Shown: positions 24,807 to 52,174 of the stretch, one piece after another | How positions within the stretch are numbered: the first letter of the stretch is position 1 | How the letters are laid out: every line of letters starts with the position of its first letter | The notes under the pieces: generated by a model | Database searches by the model: none | What the model was told of the DNA's origin: nothing | What the model saw: the letters and a program-made list of their open reading frames with translations, nothing else | Source of the DNA: Polytrichum commune | Taxonomy: Eukaryota > Streptophyta > Polytrichopsida > Polytrichales > Polytrichaceae | DNA length: 64,000 nucleotides | Direction of reading: 5' to 3' | Assembly (NCBI GenBank): GCA_950295325.1 | Contig: OX485808.1 | Coordinates: 9,426,501-9,490,500 of the forward strand | Translations under genes and position numbers: made by a program

Positions 24807-25126
24807 AGGGTTCCAATATTTGAGCTAGCACTTTGAGGGAGACATGGCTATCAACAATGCGGGTCATATTGATGAGCACGGGGTTTCCAAAAGGTTGTGA
24901 GGCTCAAATTGGAACAAGGATCATGTGCAAATGAAATTTGACCCTACCATTGGTTCTAATGACAATGGTGGGCATGAGGGTGGATCGGTAAGGAAAATGG
25001 AGGAGTCCTTTGAAAGGGCTCCCGCACACCTCAAAAAAACATTTGGGGCCTAGAAAAACGAATGCACCCAAAACCTTGGAGGGCATTAATGTTGGATTGA
25101 AATTCCAATTCGAAATGCTTGGAAGG

Positions 25127-27000: not shown

Positions 27001-28510
27001 ATTGGTGGGATGTTGGTGAGATACAAGGATGTATTCACCAATGTGTTGCCCAAAAAGTTACCGCCAAGGAATGAAAAATAACTTTGCTCAACGAGAGATT
27101 GAGTTCTTGAGGTATGTGGTGACAAAGGAAGTTGGTGGACGAACGTGAAGGATGTCAAGGCAATCCAAAAGGAGAATTGACCCTTGATTCAAAAAGGGCT
27201 TAGGTCATTTGTTGGCCTAGCCAACTACCACCACCACTTCATTCGAGAGTTTTTTAAGGTTGCTAGGACCTTATTCAACTTATTGAGGAAATGGCTATCC
27301 CAAGAGTGGGATGAGCCTTGTCACCAAGCCTTTGGGAAGCTCAAGAGCAAAGTTCCCTTCACAAGATGTGGTTAAGTTTCCGCGTTTTCATAAGCATTTT
27401 GAGGTGCACATGGAGACGAAGGACTTTATCATTGGCGGATGTTGATCCAAGATGGATAACCATTGCTTATGAGAGCATTAAACTCCATGGTTGTCGAACC
27501 TTGTCCGGCTTGTGCAAGAAATGGCTATCCCAAGAGTGGGATGAGCCGTGCCACCAAGCCATTGGGGAGCTTAAGAGCAAGTTGTCTTTGCCGCCCGTGC
27601 TCAAGCTTGCGGAGTTTGCCAAACCTTTTGAGGTGCATACGGGGGCGAGTCACTTTGCCATTGGCGGATGTTGATCCAAGATGGAGGACCATTGCATATG
27701 AGAGCAATAAGCTCAATGGTTGTTAAACCTTGTCCGGCTTGTGCAAGACATGGCTATCCCAAGAGTTGGATGAGCCGTGCCACCAAGTCCTTGAGGAGCT
27801 TAAGACGAAGTTCTCTTCGCCGCCCGTGCTCAAGTTCGCAGAGTTTGACATACCTTTTGAGGTGCATACGGGGGCGAGTGACTTTATCATTGGCGGATGT
27901 TGATATAAAAAAAAAGATGGCCATTGCATATGGGAGCATGAAGCTCGATGGTTGTCCGACCTTGTCCGACTTGTGAAAGAAATGGCTATCCCAAGAGTGG
28001 GACTAGCCTTGTCACCAAGTCTTTGAGGAGCTTAAGAGCAAGTTCTCTTCGCCGCCCGTGCTCAAGTTCGTGGAGTTTGACAAACCTTTTGAGGTGCATA
28101 CGGGGGCGAGTAATTTTGCCAATGATGAATTGTTAATGTTAGATGGATGGCCTTTGCATATGGGGGCTTGAGGCTCGATGGTTGTCATAGAAGACAACTA
28201 ACTCATGACAAAGAACTTCTTTGCCGTAGTGCATTGCTTGAAGATGTGGCGACATTATTTGGGGTCGCACAAAGCAAAGGTCTACATGGATAATGTGTCC
28301 TAAGGGTATTTTAACATATACAAGCGCAAGTGAGCGCCAAGTCATTGCGTTGGCATGATAGCTTGGCGCTTATGAAGGTGGATTTGATCCACAAACCGGA
28401 CCGTGGAAATGTGGTGCCGGATGCGCAAAGTAGACCGGAAGAGTTCCAAGCAATGATAACCATCCAAACCTTGTGGCTAATGTGTGCCGGCGAAGGAAAC
28501 TTGTGATGCA
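27001..28510 (+). pseudogene. E6 RT tail and four tandem RNase H units
   Basis: Starts with HIGGMLVRYKDVFTNVLPKK and LPPR, passes the shared deletion junction (about 27060-27100) to NNFAQREIEFLRYVV, then LRSFVGLANYHHHFIREF. Four tandem copies of the WLSQEWDEPCHQ...KPFEVHTG unit start near 27291, 27523, 27753 and 27983. An RNase H tail and the HKPDRGN...DA link follow. No YxDD motif in any frame. Confidence 0.8.
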
Positions 28511-30970: not shown

Positions 30971-31128
30971 TGTGGACATCAATCTCCTTTAGTGGGGGAG
31001 AGACGCTAGTAGCACACTTAGCTTCGAGGCTAATTGCTCCACAACATTAACTTGTTCTTTGGCTTGAGGGAATAAAGTCCAAACTTTAGTGGTGCAAAGA
31101 GAAAAGTATGAGATGAGGTCCTAGTCTT

Positions 31129-31156
31129 AACACTATATTCGTTAAATTGAGACTTT
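31129..31156 (+). repeat. Left terminal inverted repeat
   Basis: 28 bp, exact inverse of 47324-47351. Followed by a small foldback in which GAGACT (31149-31154) pairs with AGTCTC (31161-31166). The AGTCTC motif recurs just inside the other ends (about 47308 and 53520). Confidence 0.75.
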
Positions 31157-31660
31157 CTCTAGTCTCAAATTAATATATGGATCAAAGAACTTGAAGAGGC
31201 CCGAAACTATATTGTCAACAATCTCAATTATATTATATGTTCTAATATCCCAAATCTATGATGTGCGGACATAAGCACATATGGTAGAGCACTCGACACC
31301 AACTTCATCAACAAAAACACATTGGGTAGAGCACTTCAAACAAGTTTCACCCAAAAATATATATAAAATGATTTCTATTATTAGCATGTTCAATAGAATA
31401 TAGACATTGCAACATACAAAGTGCATGTAATAAATGCATGTTTCTTCATTCGAGAATATAGTCCCAAGCATAATAATAAGATGAACTTCAATTGCAGCTT
31501 GAAATATAGTAAATGGATATTCATCCAACTCCAAACAATATAGTATTCGTAAGTTCTACCCAAACTCTGCCCCAATTTTGAAGAGCACACATATGTGTAA
31601 TTTATATTGCTATAATTACGTATTAAACTATAATCATGCTAACACAATCCTACCAACTTC
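31157..31660. other. AT-rich subterminal region, no gene seen
   Basis: About 500 bp between the left terminal repeat and the stop codon of the DUF7869 gene; likely its 3' untranslated region plus transposon end. No convincing coding frame. Confidence 0.5.
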
Positions 31661-34600
31661 TCATTCAACGTGGGTTGCTTCTTCTGCAATCCGAGCAAGG
31701 TTGTCTTTTGCAAAAGTTATGTACTTTTGAGGGATGGACACTGATCCACTATGGTGTTTCCGTGGTTTCCATGCTATGAATATGGAATCTGTATCTACCC
31801 AAGATGGACCGTGCTCAGAATCCACCTTCCACCGAAAGTTAGGGTTTGTATCCCAGCCTGTATAATGCCGAATCACATCTTCATTCCTTGCTGTCGGTCG
31901 ATAGTACTCCACTTGTATTTGTCGAAAATGAGGGCTGGAAGTTACAAAATTTGGATTGGACAAAGCTCTTGCCACCCACACTGGCTTCGCATATGTCTCG
32001 TCTCCAGGACGCAAAATGAGCATATAACCTTCATGACAATCCACTGCAATGCGGAAAGATGGTGGGGGACGACTACTAGCAGGCCCCACGTAATGGTCGT
32101 CCACATCAAACTCCTCTCGAACCTCTCCATTTCCCAAAAGACTAGGCTCTGAAGCTTGTACATCGACTCGTGTTTGTGGCCAAAATCCATGCCTCAAAGT
32201 ATGAGGGCTATCTTGGTGGAGGTCTGCCAAGGCGGCACGAACACGTGTCCAATAATGTATCCAACTCCCATAACGATGCCAACATGATCCGCCAACATCC
32301 GCTATTTTCAAACTCTCCCAATATTGTATGAAGCCTGATATACCTTTCAAAATATCCTCCAAATTCTTCATGGCTATTGGCTTACAAGGCCTAGGCTCCC
32401 CATCCGGTAACATGGTCTTTCCATCCGCATCCACGCGCCACACAAGAAGACCCTCCGGCGGGCTCCAGTCTTGTGACGTGCACAACAACTTGTATTGCAT
32501 GGCCGGGACACCATCGTCACGCATATAGAAGCGGAATTGTTGTGCCTTCGTATGCCCGATCAATCGGTGAGCTCCACTTCGAATATAAGGTTCTATAAAT
32601 GCCTTGAAGTCTGGCACCTCCTCAATCATATGGGGGATGACGGGAACGTTCTCCAAATCCATGTACGACTTCATCAATAATGGAATTGTAGGAAAATCCT
32701 CCTCCCGCAACTTCATGCTCCACCGCCCAAAAGATGCATCAATATCATCGTGCGTGTGGCCTACCAATAGGAAGGACACAAAAACCTCCTTGAAAATGCC
32801 TTTCGCAACCAACAACGACCAATATGCAAATACATATCTGCTTTTATTGTCCTTGGCACAATTGTCCAATTGGACACGCAAAGTTGGAGGCAACTTCTTG
32901 GCAATCACGGGTTCATTGGGTGGCTCGGGCAACGAATGCAAGCATACATCTTTTCCATCCAACACCGCTTCATATAAAGGTGTTGAACCCGTGTTCTCAA
33001 ATAACAATCCTGAAGAATAGGCTGGTGGTTTCTCTAAATCACGTAAAAGCCTTGCAAATGATCCTATCGTGTGGTTTGAATCCGCTGGATACAAATCAAG
33101 AGCATAATGGGCAAATTTGACATCACCGTGTCCATGTGCAATCATTCCTGCAATGCCAACCCAACGTGATTAGCATCTATGTATGAATAAACCATTATGA
33201 AGGAATCCATGTTCTCCAGTACATCACGGAATAAAATACAACAACATTTAGGGTATGTCATGACATTGTTTCGAAGTTCACCTGTAACCGATACAGGCAA
33301 CTTGAAAAACCCATCCGTGGCCTTGATTCGATTTGCAAAACATGGGGAGGCTGTTTTGGCATGGTCCATTTTGTCATGGATGACCGTAAGAACCTCCAAG
33401 GGCCTGGAGATGGACAAAGCTCTATTTGTGTAGTAATCATTACGGTGTGCCTCTTGCATGTTTACGTGCTTGAAATAGTTCAATTGATGCGCTGCATATG
33501 ACTCGGTGCCCATCGTGTGTGCATCCCGGAGGCGCTTCAACTTCTCGCAATTAGAGCACCTGGCAAATTTGTCCCCTCGTCTTTTTGTAATGTATTCGCT
33601 AAAGTTTTGTTTCTTGATTGCACTCAATTTTGACAATGAAATTGGCTCCAACCCAATCTTCTCGCCAACTGCATTAACGTCCAACAATATGTCTTTCCAT
33701 TTTGTGCCTGTGGGAAGAACTTTCTCCACAACCTTTTCACCGGTTGTGAGTGTGCGTGTTTTGTGCGGCATTGCATCGGCAAGAGGGACAATGATGGTTG
33801 CTAGAGTGGCCGTTGCTTGCCTTGTTGCTTCCCTAGGCTTCTTTAAACCCACGTTACCATGGTGACGGGACCGGCGGCCTTCCTTGGCATAAGCAGCTTG
33901 TCTATAAAAGTCCGATTTCGACACACCGTGAATGGTGTACCATGCCTTACAACACACGTCTATGCTTTCAATGGTGATGACCTTGCGACCCGTCCCATTC
34001 ACATGTATCGCCCTATGGACATCAAGTTTTCTTGTGGATCTTAGACGGAAATCTCCAAGCCACATTTCTTCGCGGATGACCTTCAATTTATCCCTTGGAA
34101 ACAATTGGCAACAACGATGCACACAACAATCCTTTGTGGCAACTTCTCTAATGGACTCCTCCCCGAGCAACCTTTGACGTTTACAATCAGTTGCAGACGG
34201 AGCAGGACGTGCCAATGTATCGTACTTTCTTTGACCCTTGCGCGGCCGCATGTTTGATTGCACCTCCTTTTCGATTTGCATGTGTCGTTGCTCATGTTCA
34301 CGCAAGCTAACTCCATCAATTGTGACATTCCTCAATGGCCACCTGCGGAGGGAGAACCTATGAGTGGGATCCACCTCGGAATGAACGACCGACTCCAATA
34401 TGACAACCCCAACGTCCTCAGTGCCAAGCGGGTTTTCATCAATGCAATCTTGCGGATGGGTGTTACGGCAAATCCCCTCCGCCACAACAACTCCACTATC
34501 GTTAAGAAGTATCACCTCCAAATTCACCCACGAAGCCCTTGAAAGTCCCGTACATTCAACAATGGGACACTGCGGTACGGAAGACGAAGGTAAATCCAAA

Positions 34601-34725
34601 TGATCTTCATCCGCACTGTCAGCCATAGTAGCCTCCCCGACAATGTCTAGGTCATCATCAGATGCAGATGGCCAAGTGGCCATGTCATCAGATGACCAAT
34701 CCCCTATTTCACTAAACCCATCCAT
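31661..34725 (-). CDS. DUF7869-type protein, putative transposase (976 aa, one intron)
   Basis: Two frames, 34725-33282 and 33147-31661, join when a 134-bp GT-AG intron (33148-33281; donor ACAG/GTGAAC, acceptor ATTGCAG/GAATG) is removed; the split codon becomes Gly in SVTG-MIAHGHGD. Start chosen at MDGFSEIGDW because an acceptor-like TAGGCAG lies just before it. Order: acidic N-terminus (1-60), Cys/His cluster CCVHRCC (200-206), CCKAWYTIHGVSKSDFY (258-274), CSNC (390-393), then the conserved half with IHDKMDH (449-455), SNHTIGSFARLLRDLE (505-520), QLDNCAKDNKSRYVFAY (574-590) and GHTHDDIDASFGRWS (611-625). The last three blocks are recognisable from uncharacterised DUF7869 proteins of plants. 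Spaced acidic residues (D451 or D454, D576, D615-D618) would fit an RNase H-fold nuclease. That role is inference; position beside a terminal repeat supports it. The frame is intact. Confidence 0.8.
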
Positions 34726-34925
34726 TCTGCCTACACACATGAACATTGAACATTGTCTTAAAATCACAAAAATTGTAGGTTCAAATCGAAGAACAAAAAA
34801 ACCATCATATATAAACAAAATTGCAAATACTCAGTGCTCATACAAGTTCATATGACTGCTATGCCATTGGGCTTGCAAAGGTTTCGGAAGGCCAGTGGCC
34901 ACACCGGCACCCAGATCCCAACCAC

Positions 34926-35897
34926 ACTTAGAGGCTGGGTTTGGGTCGAGCGACCCAAACCTTTTGGGAGGATGGGTTCAGGCTCAATACAGAGAGCACC
35001 CACACTTAGGCGCTGGATTTGGGTCGAGCGACCCAAACCTTCTGGCAGGATGGGTTTAGGCTCACTACAGACAGCATCCACACTTAGGGGCTGGGTTTGG
35101 GTCGAGCGACCCAAACCTTTTGGCAGAATGGGTTTTGGGTCACGACAGGGAGCACCCACACTTAGAGGGCTGGGTTTGGGTCGAGCGACCCAAACCTTTT
35201 TGCAGGATGGGTTCAGGCTCACAACAGTGAGCACCCACAGTGTAGGGCTAGGTTTGGGTCGATCGACCCAAACCATGAGGCAGGATGGGTTCAGGCTCAC
35301 AACAATGAGCACCCACACTGTAGGGCTGGGTTTGGGTCGATCGACCCAAACCATGAGGCAGGATGGGTTCAGGCTCACAACAGAGAGCACCCACACTGTA
35401 AGGCTGGGTTTGGGTCGACCGACCCAAACCATGAGGCAGGATGGGTTCAGGCTCACAACAGTGAGCACCCACACTGTAGGGCTGGGTTTGGGTCGATCGA
35501 CCCAAACCATGAGGCAGGATGGGTTCAGGCTCACAACAGTGAGCACCCACACTGTAGGGCTGGGTTTGGGTCGATCGACCCAAACCATGAGGCAGGATGG
35601 GTTCAGGCTCACAACAGAGAGCACCCACACTGTAAGGCTGGGTTTGGGTCGACCGACCCAAACCATGAGGCAGGATGGGTTCATGCTCACAACAGTGAGC
35701 ACCCACACTGTAGGGCTGGGTTTGGGTCGATCGACCCAAACCATGAGGCAGGATGGGTTCAGGCTCACAACAGTGAGCACCCACACTGTAGGGCTGGGTT
35801 TGGGTCGATCGACCCAAACCTTGAGGCAGGATGGGTTCTGGCTCAATACAGAGAGCACCCACACTGTAAGGCTGGGTTTGGGTCGACCGACCCAAAC
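34926..35897. repeat. 78-bp satellite, 13 units, each with the 20-bp palindrome
   Basis: Palindromes TTTGGGTCGNNCGACCCAAA start at 34940, 35018, 35096, 35175, 35253, 35331, 35409, 35487, 35565, 35643, 35721, 35799 and 35877. The first four have centre AG; the last nine run AT, AT, AC three times over, giving a 234-bp higher-order unit. Because 78 is a multiple of 3, long frames are open on both strands (372 codons +, 338 codons -), but they are repeat artefacts. The array begins about 200 bp upstream of the DUF7869 start codon, so it may serve as its promoter or operator region. Confidence 0.93.
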
Positions 35898-35952
35898 AAT
35901 TCCGCAAAATCCGCCTATTTATTCGGGTGATGCTCTATTAATCTATTTATAA

Positions 35953-38250
35953 CCTATTTGGGACAACTGAACTCATAGATGCTTGTTGTAATTAGCTGCT
36001 CATGAATGGAAGCGTATACAAACCGTGTATTACAGCTCCAACTTAGAGAGCTTGCAGCAATCTCAGGATTGGGACATGAAAGAAAGAACCAGCATTTGGG
36101 GGGGTTGGGCTCTTTATACTACCCGCCTCCGCTTTGGGCATCCTCTTTGGATGCCTTTCCCACCTGGTCTCCTTTGGATGTTAATTCAAACCTTCTGACT
36201 CAATTTCCCGCTTCTTGTCAATAATAGAGAATGTATATTTAGCTTGGCTCTTCGTTGCCCCAACCACCAAATGAATAATTCAACATATATTTAAAGTTGT
36301 TACCACCCTAACTTGGTCAACACTATTCTTCAACTCTTTCATAATTAGTTTTATACATGAATACACCACCACCTTCCCTATTGCCATCTCCTTTCTCCTT
36401 TTATCATTGTTGTATATTTTTCTCACATCCTTACTAATACTAAATCCCTATATGTAACTTCCATATATCACCATAGTGGATATTTAGTGTTTGAGTTTAC
36501 ATTTAATGTTACTTACTCTCATAGGGTTAGTAATGGGAAGTGTATGTGTTCGTTTTAAGTGTATCAAACACTAACTATCATATAACTAAAAAGGATATAA
36601 AGGTTTTGATACACTACATATGAACGCATACACTGAATACCAATAACCCTATGACAATATGTAAGATTATATCTATTAAGGGGTTTTACTCTACTTGTAG
36701 TCAAACATTATGGTATATTTCAAACAATATATTGACAAAAGATGTGCATGTATTATAAAACTTCATATACTAAAAGTCACTAAATATAATAGTTAATGCT
36801 ATTATTTAGACTCTCACATGAGGACTTATATTTTGAAAACAAATAATTAATGCCATGACAAACTTGAATAATTTGGCCAACTTTCAATTTCTGCTAATTA
36901 AAAGAACATATGTTGTGTTGTAATGTGTGCACCCAATATTGCTTCATCCTCAAGACTCCAAGTGTGACAATAACCTAGTACCTATGTGGAAGTCATTAAT
37001 GGAACCCTAAACCACAAATGACATTTGGCACGTTCAATCTTCCAAGGATGTTTGAACCTATCGTGAAGTCCCTTGAACTCTACCAATGTGTGTGAGCAAA
37101 ACATGCAAAGTTCAAAAGGTATGTCCTCATATCATTCACAACATGAAATCTACTTTAAATTAATATATAATATTTCACTATTCCAAATAACATGTTAACA
37201 TGAACAACATCCTATCCATTATAATCTAGTTCTTATGCTTTTCTTACCAGGTGACAAGGTTATAGGTTAATATTGTATCACCTACTTGTGAGCACAATAT
37301 CGTTTATTTCCTTTAGTGCGTTCATTCGTGAAAAACCACACATCCATCTTTCACGTTTGTGAATTAGGATGTTGTGATGACAATATACATTTGTATTGGA
37401 AACTACAAGCACCAAGGCCCATGTCATTTGACCTATGTGCCATCCAGTTATGGTTTGTGTTGTTTAAGGTTTAGGGTTTAGGGTTTAGGGTTTAGGGTTC
37501 AGGCATCATCAAACATCAAACTGAATGTTTAAATGACTTCATATGATATGTGAACTCCATGGGGTTGCAGTAGATACATTTGTAATCATTTGTTTCTCCC
37601 ATGTACTTCAAATGTGAACTTCTAAGTACATATATTAATGTTCACTCTAATGCTACTTGTTAGGGTATCCATTATAGACTAGAGCATTGTCCTCTACCAA
37701 CAACCATCATATAAATTACAATACATAATCCTAAACTGTTAACCATGTGAATGGTTACCATATTTATATTATTGCACCGTGTAATTGCCTTTGTGGATTG
37801 CAATATAATTATGACTTACTCCTCTTAGACTTTGTAACACTCTCATATGATTCCATAAATTACATTATTCATACACCAAAACGATAATGGCTACATTCAA
37901 CGATGTTATCAATTCCAACGGGTGATCATTCAATTGAACACCATTAAAATATGAGTTGGTGATGGTGTTAATTTTGTGGAATACCTTAGTCCACGTAGGT
38001 TTTTGAGTGGTATTGAATTGCCGCTAATGAATAGCGGGTTAGAAGGCCGGGGCCGGGCGGCCAAGAGAGGCGCCGGCCCTCCTATGTCCCGCACCTAGGG
38101 GCAAGGACAACCAGGAAGGCAATCTCCCTAGGGTGGCAGGTGTCAACACCACAAGCCTCGCGGGCAACCACCTAAACCAAGGAGGTGTCGACACCTGGCA
38201 AGGTGTTGGCCCGCGAGGCTTCTGAGCCGTTGATGGGCCCGGCGCAATCT
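35953..38250. other. AT-rich intergenic region, no gene seen
   Basis: About 2.3 kb between the satellite and the leader of the large plus-strand gene. Mostly AT-rich and single copy; the last 200 bp are GC-rich and contain a repeated AGGTGTCGACACC-like text and GGGCCCGG. Only the telomere-like run at 37467-37499 stands out. Confidence 0.5.
37467..37499 (+). repeat. Interstitial telomere-like repeat (TTTAGGG)
   Basis: About four and a half perfect TTTAGGG units followed by a degenerate TTCAGG. This is the plant telomeric unit. A shorter GGGTTTAGGGT lies at 38268. Such short runs are also common in plant promoters as telo-boxes. Confidence 0.85.
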
Positions 38251-38269
38251 AATGGCCCGGATTCGAGGG

Positions 38270-38881
38270 TTTAGGGTGACCCCTTCCGCTCTCTCCTTCT
38301 CTCCCCTCCTCTTTTTCCTTTCTCTCTTTTTCTTCCTCTCTTCCTCCGCGCCAAGCGCCGCTCTTGGAAACGCCGCCGCCGCTTTCCATAGCGCCGCGCC
38401 AAGCGCTTCCTCTCGCACCTTTTGCTTTTGTCTTGGTCGCGCCGCTTCCCTTCATTCTTCTTTCTCCTTCATTCCTCTCCTCCTCTCTGATGCTTCTCCT
38501 CCTCTTCTCTCATTCTATTCCTCTTGTTATTGTCTTCCTCTTCTTATTCTCTCTTCTTGGTCCAGAGTGTTAGCTTTGAGTGAGTTCGGAGCGGTTTATT
38601 GTGTTGAACTCCTTACTTGTTTTGTAAAATTCATGCATGGAGTGATTTTAGGTTGAGTAGAAGTGAGCACGGTCGAGTGTGATAGAAAGGTAGAGGTCTT
38701 TCAAATTAGGCCTGAGTTTGCAAGAATCAGGGGGTTTGTGAGAAAGTTTTAGGGTGCTTGAGAGATTCATTGTGTTTCTGAGATCTTTGTGAGAGTTGTT
38801 CTTTAGTGCCACAACAGAGTTTCTGAGTCTGGTTGTAAGAAGCAGATTGTGAGAGCAGCTTTCAAGAGTTTGAAAGACAAG
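38270..38881 (+). promoter_or_regulatory. Probable core promoter and 5' untranslated exon of large gene
   Basis: A GC-rich segment with GGGCCC elements and a telo-box is followed by a long pyrimidine-rich run (38280-38345), typical of plant transcription start regions. The stretch ends in a good donor, GACAAG/GTAAGC, at 38881/38882; the matching acceptor ATTGCAG ends at 39967, directly before the ATG at 39968. The start site within 38270-38350 is inferred; no TATA box was found. Confidence 0.5.
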
Positions 38882-39002
38882 GTAAGCAATTTGCATCAGT
38901 GCACACAATTTGCATCATTCCCTTTAGGTTCCTGTTACATATACAATGCATAAGCATTGTATATGTTGCCCAAGCATTAAACATGCATCTGGAAACACAG
39001 TA

Positions 39003-39940
39003 GTTTGGGGAGACGACCCAAACTCATATTAAAATATAATAAATATTTGAATTGCAGCCTAAAATGAACTAAATGTTTGGGTCGTTCGACCCAAACATTG
39101 TAGCCTCTTGTTTGGGTCGAGCGACCCAAACATTGGAGCCTCATTATGTTTGGGTCGCTCGACCCAAACATTACAGGGAGAAGAACTAAACCACATTGTA
39201 AAATATAAAAGAACTTTAAAAATTAAGTAAATGTTTGGGTCGTTCGACCCAAACATTGCAGACTGAAATGACTGGGTTTGGGTACCTAAATTTGCAGCCT
39301 AACATGTTTGGGTCGCTCGACCCAAACATTACAGGGAGAAGAACTAAACCACATTGTAAAATATAAAAGAACTTCAAAAATTAAGTGAATGTTTGGGTCG
39401 TTCGACCCAAACATTGCAGTCTGAAATGATTGGGTTGAGCTACCTAAATTTGCAACCTAACATGTTTCGGTCGGTCGACCCAAACATTACAGGGAGAAGA
39501 ACTAAAGCACATTGTAAAATAAAAAAGAAATTTGAAAATTAAGTAATTGTTTGGGTCGTTCGACCCAAACATTGCAGTCTGAAATGAATGGGTTGAGCTA
39601 CCTAAATTTGCAGCCTAACATATTTGGGTCGCTCGACCCAAACATTACAAGGAGAAGAACTAAACCACATTGTAAAATATAAAAGAACTTCGAAAATTAA
39701 GTAATTGTTTGGGTCGTTCGACCCAAACATTGCAGTCTGAAATGAATGTGTTGAGATACCTAAATTTGCAGCCTCATCATGTTTGGGTCGCTCGACCCAA
39801 ACATTACAGGGTGACCACCTAAACCACACTTTAAAATCTAAAAGATCTTTTAAAACGACTTTGAAAATTAAGTAAATGTTTGGGTCAATCCTCCAAATGT
39901 TAAATGCACATTGCAATACTTTGGGTCGATCGACCGAAAC
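39003..39940. repeat. Intron 1 array: 158-bp units with paired palindromes
   Basis: Ten perfect copies of TTTGGGTCGNNCGACCCAAA start at 39076, 39111, 39149, 39234, 39307, 39392, 39550, 39623, 39708 and 39782; imperfect ones at 39003, 39465 and 39921. Copies with centre TT (39234, 39392, 39550, 39708) recur every 158 bp, and copies with centre CT (39149, 39307, 39623, 39782) interleave at the same period. The whole array lies within the inferred intron 38882-39967. Confidence 0.92.
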
Positions 39941-39967
39941 TCACAGTTTCGATTTCTTGGATTGCAG

Positions 39968-42900
39968 ATGGCCCCTAAAAAGAGACCAGGTGAAAGGTGG
40001 TTCATGCTCGCGCCAGACCACCTTTGGCAGGAGTATGAAACTCCACAGGACGATTCTTACGTCCCAAAAGATGGCGTCGTTTTGGCATGGTCCGTTCAGG
40101 TGGTGAAGGCATCCATGTTCAAGCTGCTATTCGTGGTGAAGGTGGGGACCCACGAGCAGCACACCTGGGCAACGCTGACGGGATGGGAGGTTGCGTCCGT
40201 CCAGTCTCTCGGGGACTACGTAGACGTGATACTGGAGAACTCCGCCGTGCAGAACGTCCACATGTTCATGCACCAGTTCTCCGAGCCCTTCGACCCCCTG
40301 TACGCCAAGGAGACTTGCGTCGACCCTGAAACCATAAAACCGGAGGCCATATTCATAGATGGTAGTGTAACGAACACGAAGGTTGCGAGCAGGTTCACGA
40401 AGTTAAAACAGGCTATCACGGTTCTCAACAAGGCGCTGCAAAGCAAACCCAAGACGCAGCAGCCTGTGAGGCGGAAGGCAACGACGGAAGAAGGCGCAGG
40501 GTCCTCAAGACCACAAACTGTGAGGAAACCGCGGGCGGTCCCTGCAGACTCGAGACGGACGAGCACTACAACAACGCCGGCTGACAGCGAGACGCCAACG
40601 CCATCAGGAAGCCGTCAGACGACCCCTTCCAAGAGGGGAAGAGAGTCATCGGGGATGACTGACGAGCCTGTTTCCCCGGAGCTCCGGATGCCGAAGCCTG
40701 GCCAAGAGGTGGATGCAGGCGAAATACAAAAAATAAACAACAACTTCGAGACAAAATGCCTGCACTGCTTCTTCATGGGCAGGGACTTCAAATTCGAGGT
40801 CAACATTGCGCAGTGCCACCTTGCGCCACCAGAGAAGTGCGTCCGAGCCAAGGAGGACGCCTACGTCGACTGGATGGTCGCTCAAATCTTGGGCGGGCAG
40901 TTCAAGGACGACAGGCAGACAATTGTTGTCATGCCACAAGGGCTGAAAAGAATGCCGACGCCTGAGATGTGGCCGGCAATCTCTAAAGGAGACTTCTGGC
41001 TGATTGACGGGCAGCACAGTGTGGAGGCCTCGAAAAAAATCCAGCTGATGACCGAGTGGGACGACCCGAACAACCAGAAGGAGAAGCTAAAAGTTTGGAA
41101 GGCTTTGGTGGTTTGGTCGGACAACGAGACGGTCCTCAGCGACATCTCCAGGTTCTTCAACATGGGGAACAAAAAGAGGGCCTATCAGGCATCGTGGATC
41201 AGAAACATCATGGCCTCGAGGGAGGTGTGGGAGTTTTATGGAAGGCCTCCCAAGGAAAGGGAGAATGCTAAAGACAAGAACCCCAAATGGGAGGTGAGTA
41301 TGTTTGGGTCGATCGACCCAAACTCCTACATTGTTTTGTTGTCATCGCCAGGTTGATAGTTTGGGTCGGTCGACCCAAACTCTGAAATTATTTTGATATT
41401 GTCCCCAGGTTCATAGTTTGGGTCGGTCGACCCAAACTCTGAAATTGTTAAGATGTTTTCGCCAGGTTCATAGTTTGGGTCGTTCGACCCAAACTGCTGT
41501 TGCATTTGTTTTTCCATTATGTGTTGTCTAACATGTGCTAATGTCTTCCTGTGCAGGACTTCAAATATCAAATGATCAATAAATTCTCCTCGATCGACAA
41601 TGCTAGCCACAAGCAGAAAAAGTATAACGAGCTGAGAGGAGAAATCTATTTGATCACAGCGTCCGATTCCGTATGGGCAAGATGGAAGAGTGTTTTTGAA
41701 AAACACGAGACGGGGGACCTCATGGACCCCGACACCGGCATGCTCTTCAACCAGACTACGCGCTTCAAGCAAATGAAGCCTCTGGTGAGGGAGTTCTTCA
41801 GAGCGCTTCAAGGTCTCTCCGAGACAGAGATGGGAAAAGCGGCGTCCCACATCCTACACGTGGAGACGACGGCGAAGAGATGCTGGGTCCACCCTAAGAT
41901 CGTCTTCACCAAACCCAAGATCTTCGTCCCTTCATGCTACACAATGAAGGAATGGACGGAGAACAGGAAGAAGAAGACGACCATCGTCCAGGAGCTGCAC
42001 AAGCTTGTGCCAGAGAAGAAGCTCATCGTGGACGGAGAGGTCGACGAGGCGCACTGGAGGGCCTTCAAAGCCGAATATAAGTTTACCAGTGCGTCCATGG
42101 CGGCACTCATGAGGGAGGCGGGAGACGACTTCCTCAGATCCAAGCTCGTGAAGGGGGGGAGGAACCGGGCGCTTCCCGAACACTCAGTGCGGGCCTTCTC
42201 CAACTTCATAAAGGAGAAGAAGATCGTCAGTTTCGAAGGCGATGCGCAATTCAACATGGTCACTGTCGAACCTCTCAGGATCCAGGGTTGGCCGGGTTCT
42301 GAGTCAAGGAAGGCGATCAGGACTAGAGCCGGGGACCGCTTCCCCTTCGGAATGATAGACTTCAGGAACATCCCTGGAGCCTCATTCGAGGGGACTATGA
42401 GCACCCCTTTTTACGATCCTTTCTTGTCGAAGTTCGTGGACTACGGCAGCCCCAAATTCAGGGAGGTCGACGTCTGGCTCTGGATTGTCGAGGACAGAAG
42501 GGCAGAGCAGGTTTACGAGATCGTGCGCAAATTGCAGCCGGAGTATGCCGTCTCGAAATCTCACTACGTTGCTGCACCGGCGGAGGGGGCGTACAGCACG
42601 CTGAAAGACAAGAAGACGAAGATCGTCAACGTGCTGTGTTTGTACTTCGTGTACAAAGCTGAGCTGGTTAAGGTGCCAAACCATCCCATAGCCAGGATGG
42701 AAAAGCTCTTCCAAGTCCAAGAAGGGTTGGGTACCAGCAGGAGCTTATATGACGAGGCGAAGTACGCCAACTACCCCGCGGATGAGCTGCGCATGGAGTT
42801 CTACCTGCGGATGATGAGGACCCTCACGAAGAGAGGGGACTGCATCTTCAACGTTTTCGGGGGGTCCAAACCGATTTTTGCAGCCATTGTAAGCAGAAAA

Positions 42901-45894
42901 CCCAGAAGTCCCTATACGTTCGGTTTGGGTCGAACGACCCAAACTAGGGGCATGCACAGTTTGGGTCGAGCGACCCAAACTAGGGCCATGCATAGTTTGG
43001 GTCGAGCGACCCAAACTAACTATTCTTATTTTGTTTTGGAAGTCATTTTCCATTATATGTTCATTTGGTGTTACTAATAGTATTGATTTTGATTGTGCAG
43101 ATGTCTGGGTTGAACATCTACTCCTATGTGGAGGATGCCGATGTTCAATTCTACAGGACCCAAAAGGCGCTGGCCAAGAGAATGGACATCCTCGACTGGA
43201 TACCCGGATCCTACGTCGAAGAGATCGTCGAGGGGGGCGAGAATCCTTTGGATATTGCGAGGCGAATCAACCCGGGTGAATTCGCCATGCGGGCCCCCGT
43301 TCAATTGCCAGAGCCGCTCATCGGGTTGCATCCGGGCAATCCGTCTATGGGAGCAGGTGGCGAGGTTGGGGAGGAGGGGGAGGAAGACGAGGAGGAGGCG
43401 GAGGAGGAAGCAGAGAAAGTGGAGGGGGAGGTGGAGGAAGGGGCAACAGGATTCACTCAAGAATCCGAGGCCCCTCAGCGGAAGAAGGCCATGCGGCCTG
43501 CCACGCCGCAGAGCAGGCTGGTGCCCGCGTTGACGGTGGACGACGCCAAGGATATGTACTCGAGGGACGCGACGGCCACCTTCAGGGAGCGTAGAAGGAT
43601 GAAGGGGAAGAAGCTGTACGGGGACTATGCGGTGGAGGAGACGATCGCAATAAGCTCCGAGGACGAGGACGACATGGAACTCGCCAAGAAGCTGAGGTCT
43701 GATCCTGCCTCCCCCAGAGCGTTCGCCGGGAATGTGAGGGTGAAACCGGAGGTCCTCACCGTGGAGGAGGCGAACGCAAAAATGCTCCGAGACGAGGAGC
43801 AGCGTGTGCGACTGCAGAGGGCTGCCGCCGAGGAACCCTCTGTCCGCAACGAAGTCGCGGAGTTGAGGGCTCTCCTGTTGGAGCAGGAGCGGCAAAGGGC
43901 GATGTCCCAAACTCCGTCCCAAGCGGACCTCATCACGCAAGTGATCCAGGGCATGCTGGCGCAGGGATTGGTGATGGCTCCCCCGAGTTCATTCCCTCAC
44001 TTGCCCGCAGGCTTCCCTCCACAGGATATCCGCCCGCGGCCGGCGTTGGAGCATTCCTTCAGCTTCGCGGATTTGCTGCAGCCGCACGCCCGTCCTTACG
44101 CGCCTGTGCAGCAGGTGGATGATCCAAACCTTTGGCGCGTCCCCGGAGCGTCCAGCTCGTTGGCACCCCCCCCGCTCCGGCCTCCCATCCTCTTGCCCCC
44201 ACACCACCAGCGGGACGACCCCCACATGTTTGGGTCGTCCGACCCAAACAGTGCCGACGTTGCAGCGTCGCAGAGCGACCCTCGCCAAGCAGCAGGGTTT
44301 GGGTCGGCCGACCCAAACCCCGTCCCCCATCAGACCCCGGTCGACGAGCCTATGCTAGATGTTGAAGGCCCGCAAGGGCCTGGTGATACCTCTACTCCTA
44401 ACCCAGTCGATGAACCAATGCATGATGCGCATGCGGAGGTTGGGTTGGGACAAAGGCCTGACAGTCAGCCTTTGCAGGAGCAGGTTGCGGCTGACGGCGT
44501 CGTCGGAGGCGGCGGTGACAGAGGTGGGGCAGCGCACGCGATGCCGGCATCAACGTCGTCAAGGCACGACCAAGGCGAGGTAATGCACTGACCCCACTCA
44601 GTTTGGGTCGGTCGACCCAAACTTCCTGGGTCTTTGACTTCTTGCCTTGGTCGTGTCCCCTAGCTAGGACGAACTTAGGCCCCCCCCGGCACTCGCGCCC
44701 TTCGTCACCCCCAGCGACCATTCGTTCGTCCACCTACCCCCGGCTTTGCAACGAAGTCTTCATCACGGCGGCCCGTCTCTTCAATTTTTTCTAGATGTAG
44801 AAGTAGGCTAGTTTGAACGCATCGTTCAACGCGGCTCCCCCAATCAAGATGTACATAGAGCATTGTATATAATATAATCACCATTTTTGACTCCTATATA
44901 CTTGTATATTGTGTTTGAATGTATTTTGTATGCTCTTGTATCCCTTGTATCCCTTGTTGCACCCCCTCCAAAATGAATCAAATGCTTTTGTGTTTGCACC
45001 GAGAACGCTCGTTTCCTTAATGCTTCGTTTGGACATAGCATGACATAAGTCGCCCCCGTTTTCTCTCGCTCGTATCCGCAGGGCTCGGAGCATAGCGTAG
45101 CGGCTCCCCGACGCTCTTCCCCAAGGAGCGGAGAGGGCAGCGCGGCGGCGCCCCCGGTTTTACCCGCCCCGCCCCCGCTGCCGAAGAAACGATTCCTGGT
45201 GTTAGACCTGAACGGGGTCCTCGTCCAATGCGTTCATTGCCCTAGGACCCCCACGGTGCCCTTTTGCAAGCCCGAGGACGCTAATTACGACGGGCCGCCC
45301 ACGTTCATAAAGAGCAAACTAGTTCACCTCCGCCCGTGGCTTCGGACCTTCCTCCAGATCGCCCAACAACGATGGTGGGTGGTCGTCTGGAGCTCCATGA
45401 AGGCCGAGAACACCAATGCCGTCGTGGAGTTCATCTTCAAGGGCATCGAGCCCCCCTGCATGGTCCTAGCACAAGAAGCCTGTAGAATATTGTACACACC
45501 TGACGGCAAAGTCGTCAAAAAACCAAACAACCCCGCTTCCCCCCAATATCTCAAGGTCTTGAAGCCCATTTTTTGGGACCAACGTCCGTCCTTGATAGGC
45601 GTCCCCTACGACGTCCGCCCCACCCGCGAGAACACGCTCATGGTGGACGACAGCGCCGCAAAGAACATGTTGAACCCGACGGCCAACCTCATAGTTTGCC
45701 CTACATGGACGGTCGAGAAGGTCCGGGACCGATTTTTGTTAGACCTTAGTAAATACCTCCAGGCGCTCTGGGGTAGCGGGCTACCTGTAAACAATTTTGT
45801 TAGGAACAATCCGATAGGCGAGAGATACTTGGATCCACGAGACCATTTGTACAGAGAGTTGTTCTCACACGCGAAATTCAACAAGCTCATTTGA
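39968..45894 (+). CDS. ParB-like / amino-methyltransferase-like / FCP1-type phosphatase fusion (about 1649 aa, 4 coding exons)
   Basis: Exons 39968-41293, 41557-42888, 43101-44579 and 45082-45894; all three internal introns have GT-AG ends and phase 0. Residues 1-160 unknown; 160-250 a low-complexity linker; about 265-425 a ParB/DndB-like fold with IVVMPQG (319-325) and FWLIDGQHSVEA (343-354). Residues 443-906 resemble an N6-adenine/N4-cytosine methyltransferase of the order with the SAM motif last: TKRGDCIFNVFGGSKP (866-881), FAAI/MSGL across intron 3, then YSYVEDADVQF (893-903). The expected D/N-PPY catalytic box is not seen; VDVWLWIVEDRR (746-757) sits where it should be, so the domain may bind DNA or SAM without methylating. 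Residues 907-1379 are an acidic, Pro-rich linker with a SUMO-binding-like TIAISSEDEDD and a coiled coil. Residues 1417-1649 are an FCP1/NLI-type HAD domain: FLVLDLNGVL, VVVWSSMKAEN, LMVDDSAAKNMLNP. DLNG in place of DxDG is common in the plant subgroup. Single-transcript status is inferred from phase agreement. Confidence 0.68.
41303..41493. repeat. Intron 2 array: four palindromes at 57-bp spacing
   Basis: Perfect palindromes start at 41303 (centre AT), 41360 (GT), 41417 (GT) and 41474 (TT), exactly 57 bp apart, in intron 41294-41556. The spacer text (GCCAGGTTCATAG and similar) is unrelated to the spacers of the other arrays. Confidence 0.93.
42924..43015. repeat. Intron 3 array: three palindromes at 36-bp spacing
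   Basis: Perfect palindromes start at 42924 (centre AA), 42960 (AG) and 42996 (AG), exactly 36 bp apart, in intron 42889-43100. The spacer is CTAGGGGCATGCACAG-like, again different from the other arrays. Confidence 0.93.
44229..44317. repeat. Two palindromes inside the coding sequence
   Basis: Perfect copies at 44229-44248 (centre TC) and 44298-44317 (centre GC) within the linker exon. In frame they read FGSSDPN and FGSADPN, in a Pro-rich disordered region, so the protein tolerates them. Confidence 0.92.
44602..44621. repeat. Palindrome in intron 4
   Basis: Single perfect copy (centre GT), 22 bp after the donor GAG/GTAATG at 44579/44580, in intron 44580-45081. Confidence 0.92.
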
Positions 45895-46031
45895 GGCACT
45901 ATGTGTGTTTGTATGTGTGTGTGTGTGCCCGCCCACTTTGTGTAATATATGCTTCATATGTATCTTGATTTTCACGCGCTCTATCAAACCCTCCTCCCTT
46001 GGGTTTTGTTTTGTTTTAATTTTGGCTCCAG

Positions 46032-46802
46032 CGTTTGGATCCCTCGATTGACATCGTGAGCGAGTCAAACTTGGGGAGCTTCTTCTACGAGACTGTTTAC
46101 GACGCCGCGTCAACCATTGACTACTCCAAGGAGCCTATTGACGCCGGCGTCGTCGATAGCCCCCCACCCAAGCAAATCTTCCGGCGATCTGCGTCCCCGT
46201 CGCCGCTCAAGGGCATAAATCGCAAATGCGTCCGGACGTCCCCCTCTCGACCCGGCGGCCATATTACACCTCAACGGCGGCTGCGGATGGACGCTCGGCC
46301 AACGAAGAGTGGAACCCTTCCTATTCCTTTGCGGGACGCCTTGCCCCTCCTCGCCAACTCCGACGGGAACGCCCCCGGTGACAAGGTGAACCCCCCCCCC
46401 CCAACATGGTTAACCGCGCATTACAATCATCCCACACTTAAAAAATGAACGTGTGACACGTTTGGGTCTTCCTCCCTTAACTAACACGTGTGTTCTTGCA
46501 TTCACGCGTTGCAGGTTGCTCCCGCCCGTAAACCTATGCGGGATGATCCGTCCGTCGAGGTGGAGCGTTTCTACTCCATGACCAGAAATGCAAGACAGTC
46601 CACTTCATCGTATTCGAATTCTTCGTCGTATAATTCGGGCGGCCGACGGAATCCAAAATGTGTTATTGTTGGCTGTCACCCCAAGAATGGCTATAGTCGC
46701 GGGGCGGAGATTTTCAGGAATGTTGAAGCAATGCGAGCAAAAGAAGCCGCAGCAAAAGAAAAAGAGGCAAAAGAAAAAGAGGCACTCTCCGAGGCTAGAT
46801 AG
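46032..46802 (+). CDS. Small conserved protein, copy 1 (3' two exons seen)
   Basis: Exons 46032-46385 and 46515-46802, joined in phase 0 (donor ACAAG/GTGAAC, acceptor TTGCAG/GTTGCT), give 213 residues. No ATG precedes the first one in frame: an in-frame TAA at 46017 is followed by an acceptor-like GGCTCCAG, so an upstream exon is needed. Landmarks shared with copy 2 (52175-53161): YDAASTIDYS, GVVDSPPP, SPSPL, the intron position, and the C-terminal NGYSRGAEIFRNVEA followed by a Lys/Glu/Ala helix. The function is unknown to me. It lies just downstream of the phosphatase exon in both copies. Because the exon accepts in phase 0, it could also be an alternative last exon of the large gene. Confidence 0.6.
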
Positions 46803-47323
46803 GCCATAGTAGGCGTAGGGTTTTGGGCCATAGGCAAGAACATTTTGGGTCGCACTATCCAATGGATGTTTAGGTGTTAGCATGCTATGCATTTTACATG
46901 CCATACTTTGTATGTTCTATTTGCAATAATATAAGTGTCATATGATTTCCCCTTCCATATGGTCTAAGGTTTGGATTGCCCTACCTAAACCATCACAAAT
47001 ATGAGTTTGGAATATTTTGTATGCCATATTATATTGGTTAACATATTAACCCTTCAATAAGATCTATGGTTTGGATTGCCCTACCTAAACCATATTCGTA
47101 CAAGCTCTAATATTTTGTGTGCAATAATATGAATGTTTTAAGGTTTCCCCTTCAATTTGGTCTAAGGTTTGGGTTGCCCACCCTAAACCATCACAAATAT
47201 GAGTTATATATGGGGTTTTTTGGTCTAAACACCCGCTTCAAAGTGTTCGCATCTTACAACTTTCTCCAATATGTGTTCCATTTATCCTTGTTCTTATTTT
47301 TATGAATGTCTCAAAATGCCCAA
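46803..47323. other. Right subterminal region with ~100-bp degenerate repeats
   Basis: Non-coding. Three degenerate units near 46961, 47060 and 47158 share an imperfect palindrome of the form GGTTTGGATTGCCCTACC followed by TAAACC, distinct from but reminiscent of the GTTTGGG...CCCAAAC palindromes elsewhere in the element. Confidence 0.6.
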
Positions 47324-47351
47324 AAAGTCTCAATTTAACGAATATAGTGTT
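47324..47351 (-). repeat. Right terminal inverted repeat
   Basis: 28 bp ending CGAATATAGTGTT, exact inverse of 31129-31156. Directly followed by the first unit of the 48-bp minisatellite (AGTGGCTCTTG). Confidence 0.75.
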
Positions 47352-50000
47352 AGTGGCTCTTGTGTGTGAGGTTAAGGCCTTGGCCAAACATATTCGATTA
47401 GTGGCTCTTGTGTGTGAGGTTAAGGCCTTGGCCAAACATATCAGATTAGTGACTCTTGTGTGTGAGGTTAAGGCCTTTGGCCAAAAATTTGTGATTGTAG
47501 GCTCTTGTATATGAGGTTAAGGCCTTGGCCAAGAATTTGTGATTGTATCCTCTTCTATATGAGGTTAAGGGCTTGGCCAAAAATTTGTGATTGTAGGCTC
47601 TTGTATATGAGGTTAAGGCCTTGGCCAAATATTTCAGATTGTAGGCTCTTGTGTATGAGGTTAAGGCCTTGGCCACAAAATTTCAGATTGTATCCTCTTG
47701 TATGTGAGGTTAATGCATTGCCAAAAGTTTGTGATTGTTGGCTCTTGTGTGTGAGGTTAAGGACTTGGCCAAAAAATTGTGATTGTATCCTCTTCTATAT
47801 GAGGTTAAGGGCTTGGCCAAAAATTTGTGATTGTAGGCTCTTGTATATGAGGTTAAGGCCTTGGCCAAATATTTCAGATTGTAGGCTCTTGTGTATGAGG
47901 TTAAGGCCTTGGCCACAAAATTTCAGATTGTATCCTCTTGTATGTGAGGTTAATGCATTGCCAAAAGTTTGTGATTGTTGGCTCTTGTGTGTGAGGTTAA
48001 GGACTTGGCCAAAAAATTGTGATTGTATCCTCTTCTATATGAGGTTAAGGGCTTGGACAAAAATTTGTGATTGTAGGCTCTTGTATATGAGGTTAAGTCC
48101 TTGGCCAAACATATCACATTAGTGGCTGTTGTGTGTGAGGTTAAGGCCTTGGCCAAAAATTTCGGATTGTATCCTCTTGTATGTGATGTTAAGGCCTTGG
48201 GCAAAAATTTCAGATTGTTGGCTGTCGCAACCCTTGCTAGGTCCCTTAACAATCTTGCCAATTTTCGTTTCTAGCAAAGGTTACGAGCGCTAACCATTCG
48301 CATTCCGCCATGCTAATGGATAGCTCCTCTTACCCTGGACCAATAGTTCATAGGAGGGAACCAACCCTCCTACTTTGCTTTCGGGACTCACCCCTTAATC
48401 GGTAACCCATTTCCCCAATGTGGACTTCCATCCATGGAAGTCCAATCCTATGTTGATCATCGCGTTGCCGGAGCAACACTACAACAACCCGAAGCATACT
48501 AGGCAACTATGGCCTCACAATAGGCCAAAGCCCATGGAGGCCTTGCCGTTCGGCCTCGGGTGGGTGAGGCCACACCACCTCACCCATATAAGCCTCTAGG
48601 ACTTCACGCGGGGCCCCTACCCCACCGTCAACCAACCTCTTGTCTCTCTACCAAGAGTTGGGGCCAAGTGGACATTTTCCCTTAGCCGCTGGGCCTAGAA
48701 GCCCCCAGCAGCTTCAGACCATCATAACTTCCTTGTATGATGTCTGATTCCAGTAACCAACCACTCCATCTTCATCTACGCTTCACGTAGATGCCGATGG
48801 ACTGGTCACTTGCCCCATTCGGGCAAGTGGTGAGGAAGTTATGCCTGTTTGAACCTTGGCAGTCCCGGGAATCACTCCCAGGCACTGCTGTAGCAGGGCG
48901 CTGTCCCGGGACAGCGCCCCACTCAAATGGCCATAACTCCTAGCTCACACCTCGGATTGAGGTGTTCTTGAGCATTCTAGAAACACCACGCCATGAGCTA
49001 CGCATAGCTCATGGCCTTACCCTTGTGCCTCCTAGTCTTCGTGGATGGGAGGCGTTCCCAACGCCCGGGGACCTCACCCACACTAGGATCACTTGGGCCC
49101 TCTCACCAACGGCGCCACAAGTCCCGGGTGTCACTCCAGGGTCCCCCTTGTGCCCATGGTGTTTCGGGCACTCCTCATGGAGAGGTGCGCGACATTGGCT
49201 CTTGTGTGTGAGGTTAAGGCCTTGGCCAAAAATTTGTGATTGTAGGCTCTTGTATATGAGGTTAAGGCCTTGGCCACAAAATTTCAGATTGTATCCTCTT
49301 GTATGTGAGGTTAATGCATTGCCAAAAATTTGTGATTGTTGGCTCTTGTGTGTGAGGTTAAGGCCTTGGCCACAAAATTTCAGATTGTATCCTCTTGTAT
49401 GTGAGGTTAATGCATTGCCAAAAATTTGTGATTGTTGGCTCTTGTGTGTGAGGTTAAGGCCTTGGCCATAAATTTCAGATTGTAGCCTCTTGTATGTGAG
49501 GTTAAGGCCTTGGCCAAACATATCAGATTAGTGGCTCTTGTGTGTGAGGTTAAGGCCTTGGCCAAACATATCATATTAGTGGCTCTTGTGTGTGAGGTTA
49601 AGGCCTTGGCCAAAAATTTGTGATTGTAGGCTCTTGTATATGAGGTTGAGGCCTTGGCCAAGAATTTGTGATTGTTGGCTCTTGTGTGTGAGGTTAAGCC
49701 CTTGGCCAAAAATTTGTGATTGTATCCTCTTCTATATGAGGTTAAGGGCTTGGCCAAACATATCAGATTAGTGGCTCTTGTGTGTGAGGTTAAGGCCTTG
49801 GCCAAAAATTTCAGATTGTATCCTCTTGTATATGAGGTTAAGGCCTTGGCCAGAAAATTCAGATTGTTGGCTCTTGTGTGTGAGGTTAAGGCCTTGGCCA
49901 AAAATTTGTGATTGTAGGCTCTTGTATATGAGATTAAGGCCTTGGCCAAAAGTTTCAGATTGTATGCTCTTGTGTGTGAGGTTAAGGCTCTTGTGAATTT
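47352..50000. repeat. 48-bp minisatellite, about 35 units, split by a solo LTR
   Basis: Unit of the form GGCTCTTGTGTGTGAGGTTA then AGGCCTTGGCCAAAAATTTG and TGATTGTA. Units run 47352-48222 and 49195-50000. In the left block a five-unit (240-bp) higher-order repeat is visible: CCTCTTCTATATGAGG recurs at about 47549, 47789 and 48029. The unit is 16 codons long, so long frames on both strands (up to 225 codons) are artefacts. Each unit holds the near-palindrome AAGGCCTTGG. Confidence 0.93.
48223..49194 (-). repeat. Solo LTR S4 inside the minisatellite
   Basis: 972 bp with TSD TTGGC (48218-48222 and 49195-49199). Its variants (TAGGTCCCTTAAC, TTTCCCCAATG) place it closest to the E5 LTRs. Confidence 0.93.
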
Positions 50001-50097
50001 TAAGCATTCTTGAGTCTTTGGGTTGAGGTTAAGTTCTTGGCCAAAATTTACTTGATTTTTGAGTTCATTTGTGTACCTCATCATTTGTTCATCAGGT

Positions 50098-52052: not shown

Positions 52053-52174
52053 AACGCCTCCATGTCTTTGCTTTGTATCATGTGGTTCACATTTACTAAT
52101 GCTTGCTCCGTTTTTGGATGTCTTTTTGTTGTTGTTTTTTGTTGTTGTTGTGCTTGTGGTTGTTGCCCCCTTAG

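Follow-up and report, generated by a model that had tools for sequence, protein, structure and literature searches.

How a transposon recognises its own copies and resists silencing by its host is understood in few systems. The closest functional parallel to the locus described here is VANDAL21 (Hiun) of Arabidopsis with its protein VANC, which, according to the accounts in PMC5735166 and PMC10398659, binds arrays of a motif in the noncoding regions of the element, introns included, and induces a loss of methylation. Two other groups deserve comparison: the CACTA (En/Spm) elements, e.g. the 20.5-kb Tgmt* of soybean, which as presented in PMC2613891 are large, carry CACTA in the terminal repeat and combine a transposase with a second function, their repeated motifs being thought to be bound by an element protein; and the fungal TET/JBP dioxygenase transposons (Dileera, Plavaka, ESTA and others), portrayed in PMC12730594 as DNA transposons that have acquired an additional gene, whose presumed targets are silencing marks. 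We have analyzed a stretch of 64,000 nucleotides of Polytrichum commune (contig OX485808.1, positions 9,426,501 to 9,490,500; hereafter the window, whose own numbering is used throughout), in which positions 31129-47351 hold what is probably a large DNA transposon endowed with its own clade-specific self-recognition palindrome.

By analogy, the element resembles the self-recognition system of VANDAL/VANC, executed with different proteins. Like the elements described in PMC5735166 and PMC10398659, it is a DNA transposon with several genes and with its own arrays of a short motif upstream of genes and in introns, the motif differing between related families while the protein families are held in common; within the window, 33 of its 35 motif copies lie outside coding exons, in the manner of the noncoding arrays of VANDAL/VANC. 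There are differences as well. VANDAL is classified in PMC12730594 as a MuDR-type element, whereas no Mutator-type (MULE) transposase from Pfam matched any of the eight pieces of open reading frame (ORF) scanned from our element; and the VANDAL motif is described as nine bases (YAGTATTAY) arrayed in one orientation, whereas ours is a 22-bp palindrome. Unlike the fungal transposons, which belong to fungal hosts, the element yielded no TET/JBP family in the eight scanned pieces, and the main text of PMC12730594 names no ParB, a family that will concern us below. The element could not be matched to a described transposon family; DUF7869, the domain of its first gene, goes unmentioned in the open-licence papers searched, and none of the papers listed on related subjects describes such an element, a negative that is no proof of its being new.

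The limits of the element are set by a pair of inverted repeats, such as are found at both ends of DNA transposons. The first-pass annotation had claimed that a perfect 28-bp inverted repeat bounds 31129-47351, and so it does: the two copies match at 28 of 28 bp, or over 29 bp if the outermost T/A pair is included (31128-31156 and 47324-47352), with about 3e-8 perfect 28-bp inverted pairs expected by chance in 64 kb. Both edges are sharp, the left one against five of the five other retrotransposon copies in the window and the right one against a second element. On the left, 629 bp of flank match those five places at 92.8-95.7% identity, and all five alignments stop at 31128; the other copies continue with GTACTTGTGC (GTCTT followed by GTACTTG) whereas at the junction with the element the sequence becomes AACACTATATTCG (GTCTT followed by AACACTA), and over the first 600 bp past that point the copy at 9687 is matched by the other four at 97.7-99.5% identity. 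Since five uninterrupted copies run on past the junction, the element begins exactly there, and its leading AA does not belong to the target. At the other end, the terminus of a second, strongly diverged element, which carries the phosphatase, the third ORF and the terminus in the same order as the first, is shared with the first element up to and including the last T, beyond which the two differ; this terminus amounts to a third copy of the terminal repeat, with three mismatches, at 53537-53564 on the minus strand. Judged from these comparisons, both ends look real, and no copy whose similarity continues beyond the element ends was seen within the window. A further match to the 11-base terminus, with one mismatch, lies outside both elements at 54565-54575 on the minus strand, 0.43 chance matches with at most one mismatch being expected in the window. 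The two ends might be read as carrying a duplicated TA, but this reading was rejected, since the bases concerned belong in part to the terminal repeat and to the neighboring satellite.

What sets the interior of the element apart is the 22-bp palindrome GTTTGGGTCGNNCGACCCAAAC, which can be written GTTTGGGTCG-NN-CGACCCAAAC and thus follows a plan of 10+2+10 around a CG-NN-CG core. Allowing up to three mismatches, there are 35 copies (31 exact, three with one mismatch and one with two), against a mean of 0.00 in 100 dinucleotide shuffles, so that the palindrome family remarked upon in the first-pass annotation stands far above chance; all 35 lie inside the element and none elsewhere in the window. 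This confinement, together with a sequence that is apparently clade-specific, is the new point beyond that annotation. Thirteen copies precede the DUF7869 gene, 12 precede gene 2, four lie in its intron 1, three in intron 2, two in exon 3 and one after exon 3, and it is this common palindrome that ties both gene units into one element. The arrays before the two genes are built of different units (78 and 158 bp), and what they have in common is mainly the palindrome core. Conservation over all 35 copies is 91-100% in the arms, 54-63% in the center, 37-54% in the left flank and 34-77% in the right flank, the high right-flank values going with tandem copies; among 14 representatives chosen by hand to lessen the weight of tandem copies, the 20 arm positions are conserved at 93-100%, the two central positions at 50-57% and the 12 flanking positions on each side at 29-57%. 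Five arm substitutions occur over the 35 copies, none of them compensated on the other arm. More degenerate versions, with four mismatches each (0.05 such expected per 64 kb), stand at 46969, 47069 and 47167, in the tandem repeat near the right end. The single candidate for a palindrome of the second element, a match with six mismatches at 52770, was discarded, 2.25 such being expected per 64 kb. The palindrome was not found in one scan of a prokaryote genome collection, and viral contigs scanned with gene-2 exon 1, the palindrome, the terminal repeat and a DUF7869 profile returned nothing that could be confirmed (two of these scans gave 2 and 53 unconfirmed pattern matches).

The palindrome can be followed into other genomes through database proteins whose open frames run into introns, where it leaves 7-residue readings in three frames. 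Relatives of gene 2 retrieved with exon 1 show an exact trace in 15 of 43 matches (18 of 43 at up to one mismatch), and those retrieved with exons 2 and 3 in 19 of 56 (21 of 56). Restricting the count to close relatives (at least 60% identity) and to tails of at least nine residues read through into introns, exact traces occur in 16 of 27 intron-1 tails (19 of 27 at up to one mismatch; 0.02 expected from shuffles) and in 13 of 24 intron-2 tails (14 of 24; 0.00 expected). Leading stretches of at least nine residues carry the trace, at up to one mismatch, in 3/4 cases before exon 1 and 3/13 before exon 2; and in exon 3, six of seven relatives (55-77% identity) hold one to three in-frame copies, 12 in total, P0219 having none.

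More distant relatives (below 60% identity) lack the element palindrome, its trace being found in 0 of 15 intron-2 tails and 0 of 3 intron-1 tails, and appear to carry another one. Their intron-2 tails repeat LRT.VRK, YER.FVN and FTN.RS, which are the three frames of TTTACGAACG-NN-CGTTCGTAAA, a motif that agrees with the palindrome of the element in its 10+2+10 plan and in its CG-NN-CG core. It is matched exactly by five of the 15 far intron-2 tails and within one mismatch by eight (0.03 expected from shuffles), by one of two far intron-1 tails at one mismatch, and by none of the 28 and 25 close-clade tails (the stop sign adds one to tail length in this count). Three more far tails (P0205, P0210 and P0208) carry LRPRGRK or FTDARP, which lie outside the template and were left uncounted, and which may be read as changes on both arms. 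A palindrome score of 10+2+10 that uses no template gives z values of 9.3 and 7.4 for the 27 and 24 close-clade tails and 2.8 for the 15 far ones, with 0 of 200 shuffles as high, and 2.6 for the two far intron-1 tails, with 2 of 200 shuffles as high. The scores for a spacer of 0 bp differ little from those for 2 bp (216.2 versus 211.7 and 159.4 versus 173.4 in the close clade, 86.0 versus 88.0 in the far one) because most pairs are common to both, so that the evidence for a 2-bp spacer comes from the window DNA itself. The far motif has no copy in the window with up to five mismatches, and two viral contigs that matched a generalized form of the far-clade palindrome were taken as chance for a pattern of 16 bases.

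The two gene units are divergent, as had been proposed at first pass, with the DUF7869 gene on the minus strand and the phosphatase-bearing unit on the plus strand. The spliced DUF7869 protein is an open frame of 976 residues if the predicted splice is correct, and its label is well founded, Pfam PF25273 scoring 146.2 bits against a curated cut-off of 26 (E 1.1e-42). It is co-linear with P0069 of Physcomitrium patens (42% identity over residues 34-966) and 50% identical to P0018 over residues 163-970; the closest relatives among the matches listed reach 66-98% identity, and two moss species, Ceratodon purpureus (P0033) and Physcomitrium patens (P0054, P0069 and P0081), are represented among the best 120 of 217, in keeping with a moss as host. 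In an alignment of 49 rows, numbered after P0007, two acidic residues of the HDKMDH motif are retained in 43/49 (D101, six gaps) and 44/49 (D104, five gaps), D225 of QLDN in 49/49, and D265 and D267 are invariant; some of these acidic positions could be the D/D/D or D/D/E set of a transposase. DUF7869 is therefore a candidate transposase, which would act on the terminal repeats. A weak match of its exon 1 outside the element (24904-25080, 29%, E 0.039) was taken as chance.

Gene 2 was announced as a fusion of ParB-like, methylase-like and phosphatase-like parts, and of these labels only the last survives. The three exons (39968-41293, 41557-42888 and 43101-44579 or -44591) are in phase 0 throughout, and none of them has a Pfam match reaching E 1. 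By eye, we take LIDGQHS in exon 1 to be like the DGQHR of ParB, and FNVFGGSK in exon 2 presumably recalls an amino-methylase motif, neither with support from profiles or structures. No ParB family was found at Pfam E values up to 1 in 31 sequences (the window and 30 of the 43 matches), nor any ParB chain among 12 PDB matches of exon 1 at E up to 10; likewise, no methylase family appeared at Pfam E values up to 10 in 40 sequences (the window and 39 of the 56 matches), nor any methylase among five PDB matches of exon 2, and the position of the catalytic DPPY, compared by eye, reads DFRN. Beyond phosphatase matches below the curated cut-off, NCBIfam, PADLOC and PHROGs yielded nothing usable for the exons. 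A weak tblastn search against phages returned one hypothetical-protein region in four Vibrio phages (E 3), while the ParB-like part had no match there. ParB-parS systems and ParB-methylase fusions, which occur in phages and plasmids, are comparable through the two motifs seen by eye and a palindromic, repeated site, with no profile support. The phosphatase label is upheld by PF03031 (E 4.5e-15), which is found in the second element too. The catalytic motif of NIF/FCP-type phosphatases is DxDx(T/V); both elements read DLNGV at this place, the second Asp being replaced, and phosphatase activity is doubtful because DxD has become DLN in both. Exons 1-3 and the phosphatase may form a single fused gene, which would depend on a putative splice at 44580; the relatives P0165, P0214 and P0219 retain the GEVMH or GEVMY end of exon 3. 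Splicing of the phosphatase exon, the fourth, on into the third ORF was dropped, since the stop after NKLI is kept in both elements.

Some of these observations may be qualitatively explained by assuming that the DUF7869 protein mobilizes the element via the terminal repeats, and that one of the element's own proteins, most probably that of gene 2, binds the palindrome as a symmetric dimer across the 2-bp spacer. Gene 2 is favored as the source of the binder because the palindrome seems to change between gene-2 clades. Bound palindromes would mark the leaders and introns of the element, and this marking would keep the element expressed against host silencing, or would control its own expression; site and binding protein would change together between clades, such that each lineage recognizes mainly itself. 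The more ambitious version, namely that a plant family has evolved, independently of VANDAL/VANC, a clade-specific code in which a 10+2+10 CG-NN-CG site placed in leaders, introns and coding frame is read by a protein of new fold, site and reader switching together and the element escaping silencing, is put forward tentatively, as something we think possible rather than probable. If true, it would provide a second and apparently unrelated system whose site is palindromic, hence easily assayed, and in which one could test directly how reader and site coevolve, perhaps in mosses, a group with some readily transformed species. The element also suggests a role for the uncharacterized DUF7869, as the transposase of an element with defined ends.

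A number of findings weigh against this account. No target-site duplication was found, the left flank being retrotransposon and the right flank satellite, i.e., of different origins, and the remainder of the interrupted retrotransposon does not lie right of the element but is present, within the window, in the five other copies only. With flanks of different origin, no target duplication is to be expected in this copy, which may be a recombinant between two copies, the product of a rearrangement or a mis-joined assembly. Nor was a second complete copy seen in the 64 kb. The earlier claim of one cut-and-paste element thus holds in its first half, a single bounded element with terminal inverted repeats, sharp edges on both sides and a common palindrome; its cut-and-paste mode, with no target-site duplication seen, is something that we infer. 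As for the proteins, transposase profiles matched none of the 49 DUF7869 members scanned, profile searches found no transposase among solved structures, and no DNA-binding or transposase fold emerged for the element proteins. Palindrome traces were absent from all of the best 120 of 217 DUF7869 relatives, whose ORFs are not expected to cover the leader. Among close relatives of gene 2, 8/27 intron-1 tails and 10/24 intron-2 tails show no trace even at one mismatch, and 7/15 and 1/2 of the respective intron-2 and intron-1 tails of the far group fail to match the far motif within one mismatch. The shuffle figure for that motif is not a clean test, because the template was read from the same data, and the template-free score must be read with reserve in the far group, where the best-scoring stretch corresponds to the motif or a variant of it in no more than 8 of the 15 tails. 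Lastly, the anti-silencing role of the palindromes is a conjecture, by analogy with VANDAL/VANC.

The main rival to anti-silencing holds that the palindromes are sites of transposition, at which an accessory protein gathers the ends or represses transcription, as TnpA does in En/Spm; the choice between the two is one of interpretation, and we regard this rival as rather unlikely, albeit worth serious consideration. It draws on the three degenerate copies in the 98-bp array, some 150-430 bp inside the right terminus, and on the second protein of CACTA elements, which in the account of PMC2613891 binds repeated motifs whose sequence varies among elements; yet the 35 good copies lie at least 3.8 kb from the left end and at least 2.7 kb from the right, in leaders, introns and one exon, and no copy with up to six mismatches exists between 31129 and 34938. 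The terminal repeat, which contains CACTATATTCG, and the large size and second DNA-binding protein known of CACTA elements (so described in PMC2613891) might suggest that the whole is a diverged CACTA (En/Spm) element, to which we attach a low probability: three of three observed termini read AACACTA, with an AA that the uninterrupted retrotransposon copies exclude as target sequence, Pfam detects a Tnp2-type transposase in none of the eight ORF pieces scanned, the transposase candidate being DUF7869 instead, and the good motifs are internal, not subterminal. The 3-bp target-site duplication of CACTA elements was not found either, a weak test given flanks of different origin.

It is also improbable that 31129-47351 comprises two neighboring elements, or a chimera that arose in assembly across a long repeat. 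Such a composite would account for flanks of different origin and for the target duplication that was not seen, but the terminal repeats are perfect and oppositely placed, the palindrome is common to both gene units and missing from the rest of the window, the second element has these genes and this terminus at its own end, and a chimera would alter the flanks, not necessarily the interior. A function in RNA, where a 9-bp hairpin with a GNNC loop in leader or intron transcripts would control splicing or export, has little to recommend it in our estimate: although the copies lie in likely transcribed regions, the first one 8, 34 and 21 bp past the three splice donors, and one of the five arm substitutions (35017) gives a G-U pair in the sense-strand RNA of the DUF7869 gene, the other four (39464, 39622 and two in 39919) break the pair without a G-U on the gene-2 sense strand, the arms are near-fixed in sequence and not in pairing only, and the arrays preceding the two genes account for 25 of the 35 copies, in excess of what introns would call for. 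Finally, the palindromic elements of Rickettsia set a precedent for palindromes copied in frame into exons, and one might picture a small independent parasite spreading by copying, as the in-frame exon-3 copies (one to three per relative in 6/7) would allow; we deem this very improbable, for no copy lies outside the element in 64 kb of DNA full of other repeats, the expansion has proceeded largely via tandem arrays, and the far clade appears to carry a different sequence of identical geometry.

Table 1. Features of the element at 31129-47351 and of the second element, in window coordinates.
Feature	Position	Strand	Remarks
Left terminal inverted repeat	31129-31156	+	Starts AACACTATATTCG; abrupt junction with the retrotransposon flank
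DUF7869 gene, exon 2 (C-terminal part; stop 31661-31663)	31661-33147	-	PF25273, E 1.1e-42; spliced frame without internal stops
DUF7869 gene, exon 1 (ATG at 34725)	33282-34725	-	Boundary inferred from relatives and splice consensus
78-bp tandem array, 13 palindromes	34922-35897	.	5' of DUF7869 start codon; TRF and pattern scans
158-bp tandem array (39061-39855) and copy at 39919, 12 palindromes	39061-39940	.	5' of gene-2 start; tandem-repeat and pattern scans
Gene 2, exon 1 (442 aa)	39968-41293	+	Start codon 39968; 43 database relatives
Four palindromes in intron 1	41302-41494	.	First one 8 bp past splice donor
Gene 2, exon 2 (444 aa)	41557-42888	+	56 matches, 6 of them (P0214-P0219) only to exon 3 start
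Three palindromes in intron 2	42923-43016	.
Gene 2, exon 3	43101-44591	+	Stop 44589-44591, or spliced between 44579 and 44580; two in-frame palindromes (FGSSDPN, FGSADPN)
Palindrome after exon-3 stop or in putative intron 3	44601-44622	.
NIF/FCP-like phosphatase exon	45082-45894	+	PF03031, E 4.5e-15; stop after ...NKLI as in second element
Third ORF, exon 1	46032-46385	+	Homologous to second element 52253-52510, 42%
Third ORF, exon 2	46515-46802	+	Homologous to second element 52925-53158, 45%
Right subterminal 98-bp tandem repeat	46922-47199	.	Three degenerate palindromes
Right terminal inverted repeat	47324-47351	-	Perfect inverted match to 31129-31156
Second, strongly diverged element, 3' part	51285-53564	+	51285 is a putative splice acceptor
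Second element, phosphatase match	51336-52049	+	44% identical
Second element, third-ORF matches	52253-52510, 52925-53158	+	42% and 45%

The surroundings of the element are themselves repetitive. Its right flank is a 48-bp satellite (47355-50050) that begins right at the right end of the element and is interrupted by an LTR-like (long terminal repeat-like) repeat of about 970 bp, at about 48224-49194, of which a dozen further copies lie in the window; the satellite might be an internal array of the second element. At the outer edge of the latter begin open frames that extend from 53561 to 54740, two pieces of which are without a Pfam match, and which possibly belong to a gene into which the second element inserted. 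Between the gene units of the first element, in a space otherwise free of palindromes, six plant telomere-type repeats (GTTTAGG) occupy 37462-37503, and a long imperfect hairpin with two arms of 82 nt, 72% complementary, occupies 36498-36675, possibly as a small nested inverted-repeat element. Tandem duplications of 220-229 bp, in 2.9-4.9 copies, are found at five places (298-966, 4719-5380, 20207-20867, 27288-28187 and 58333-59449), in sequence that by eye resembles the reverse-transcriptase part of a retrotransposon.

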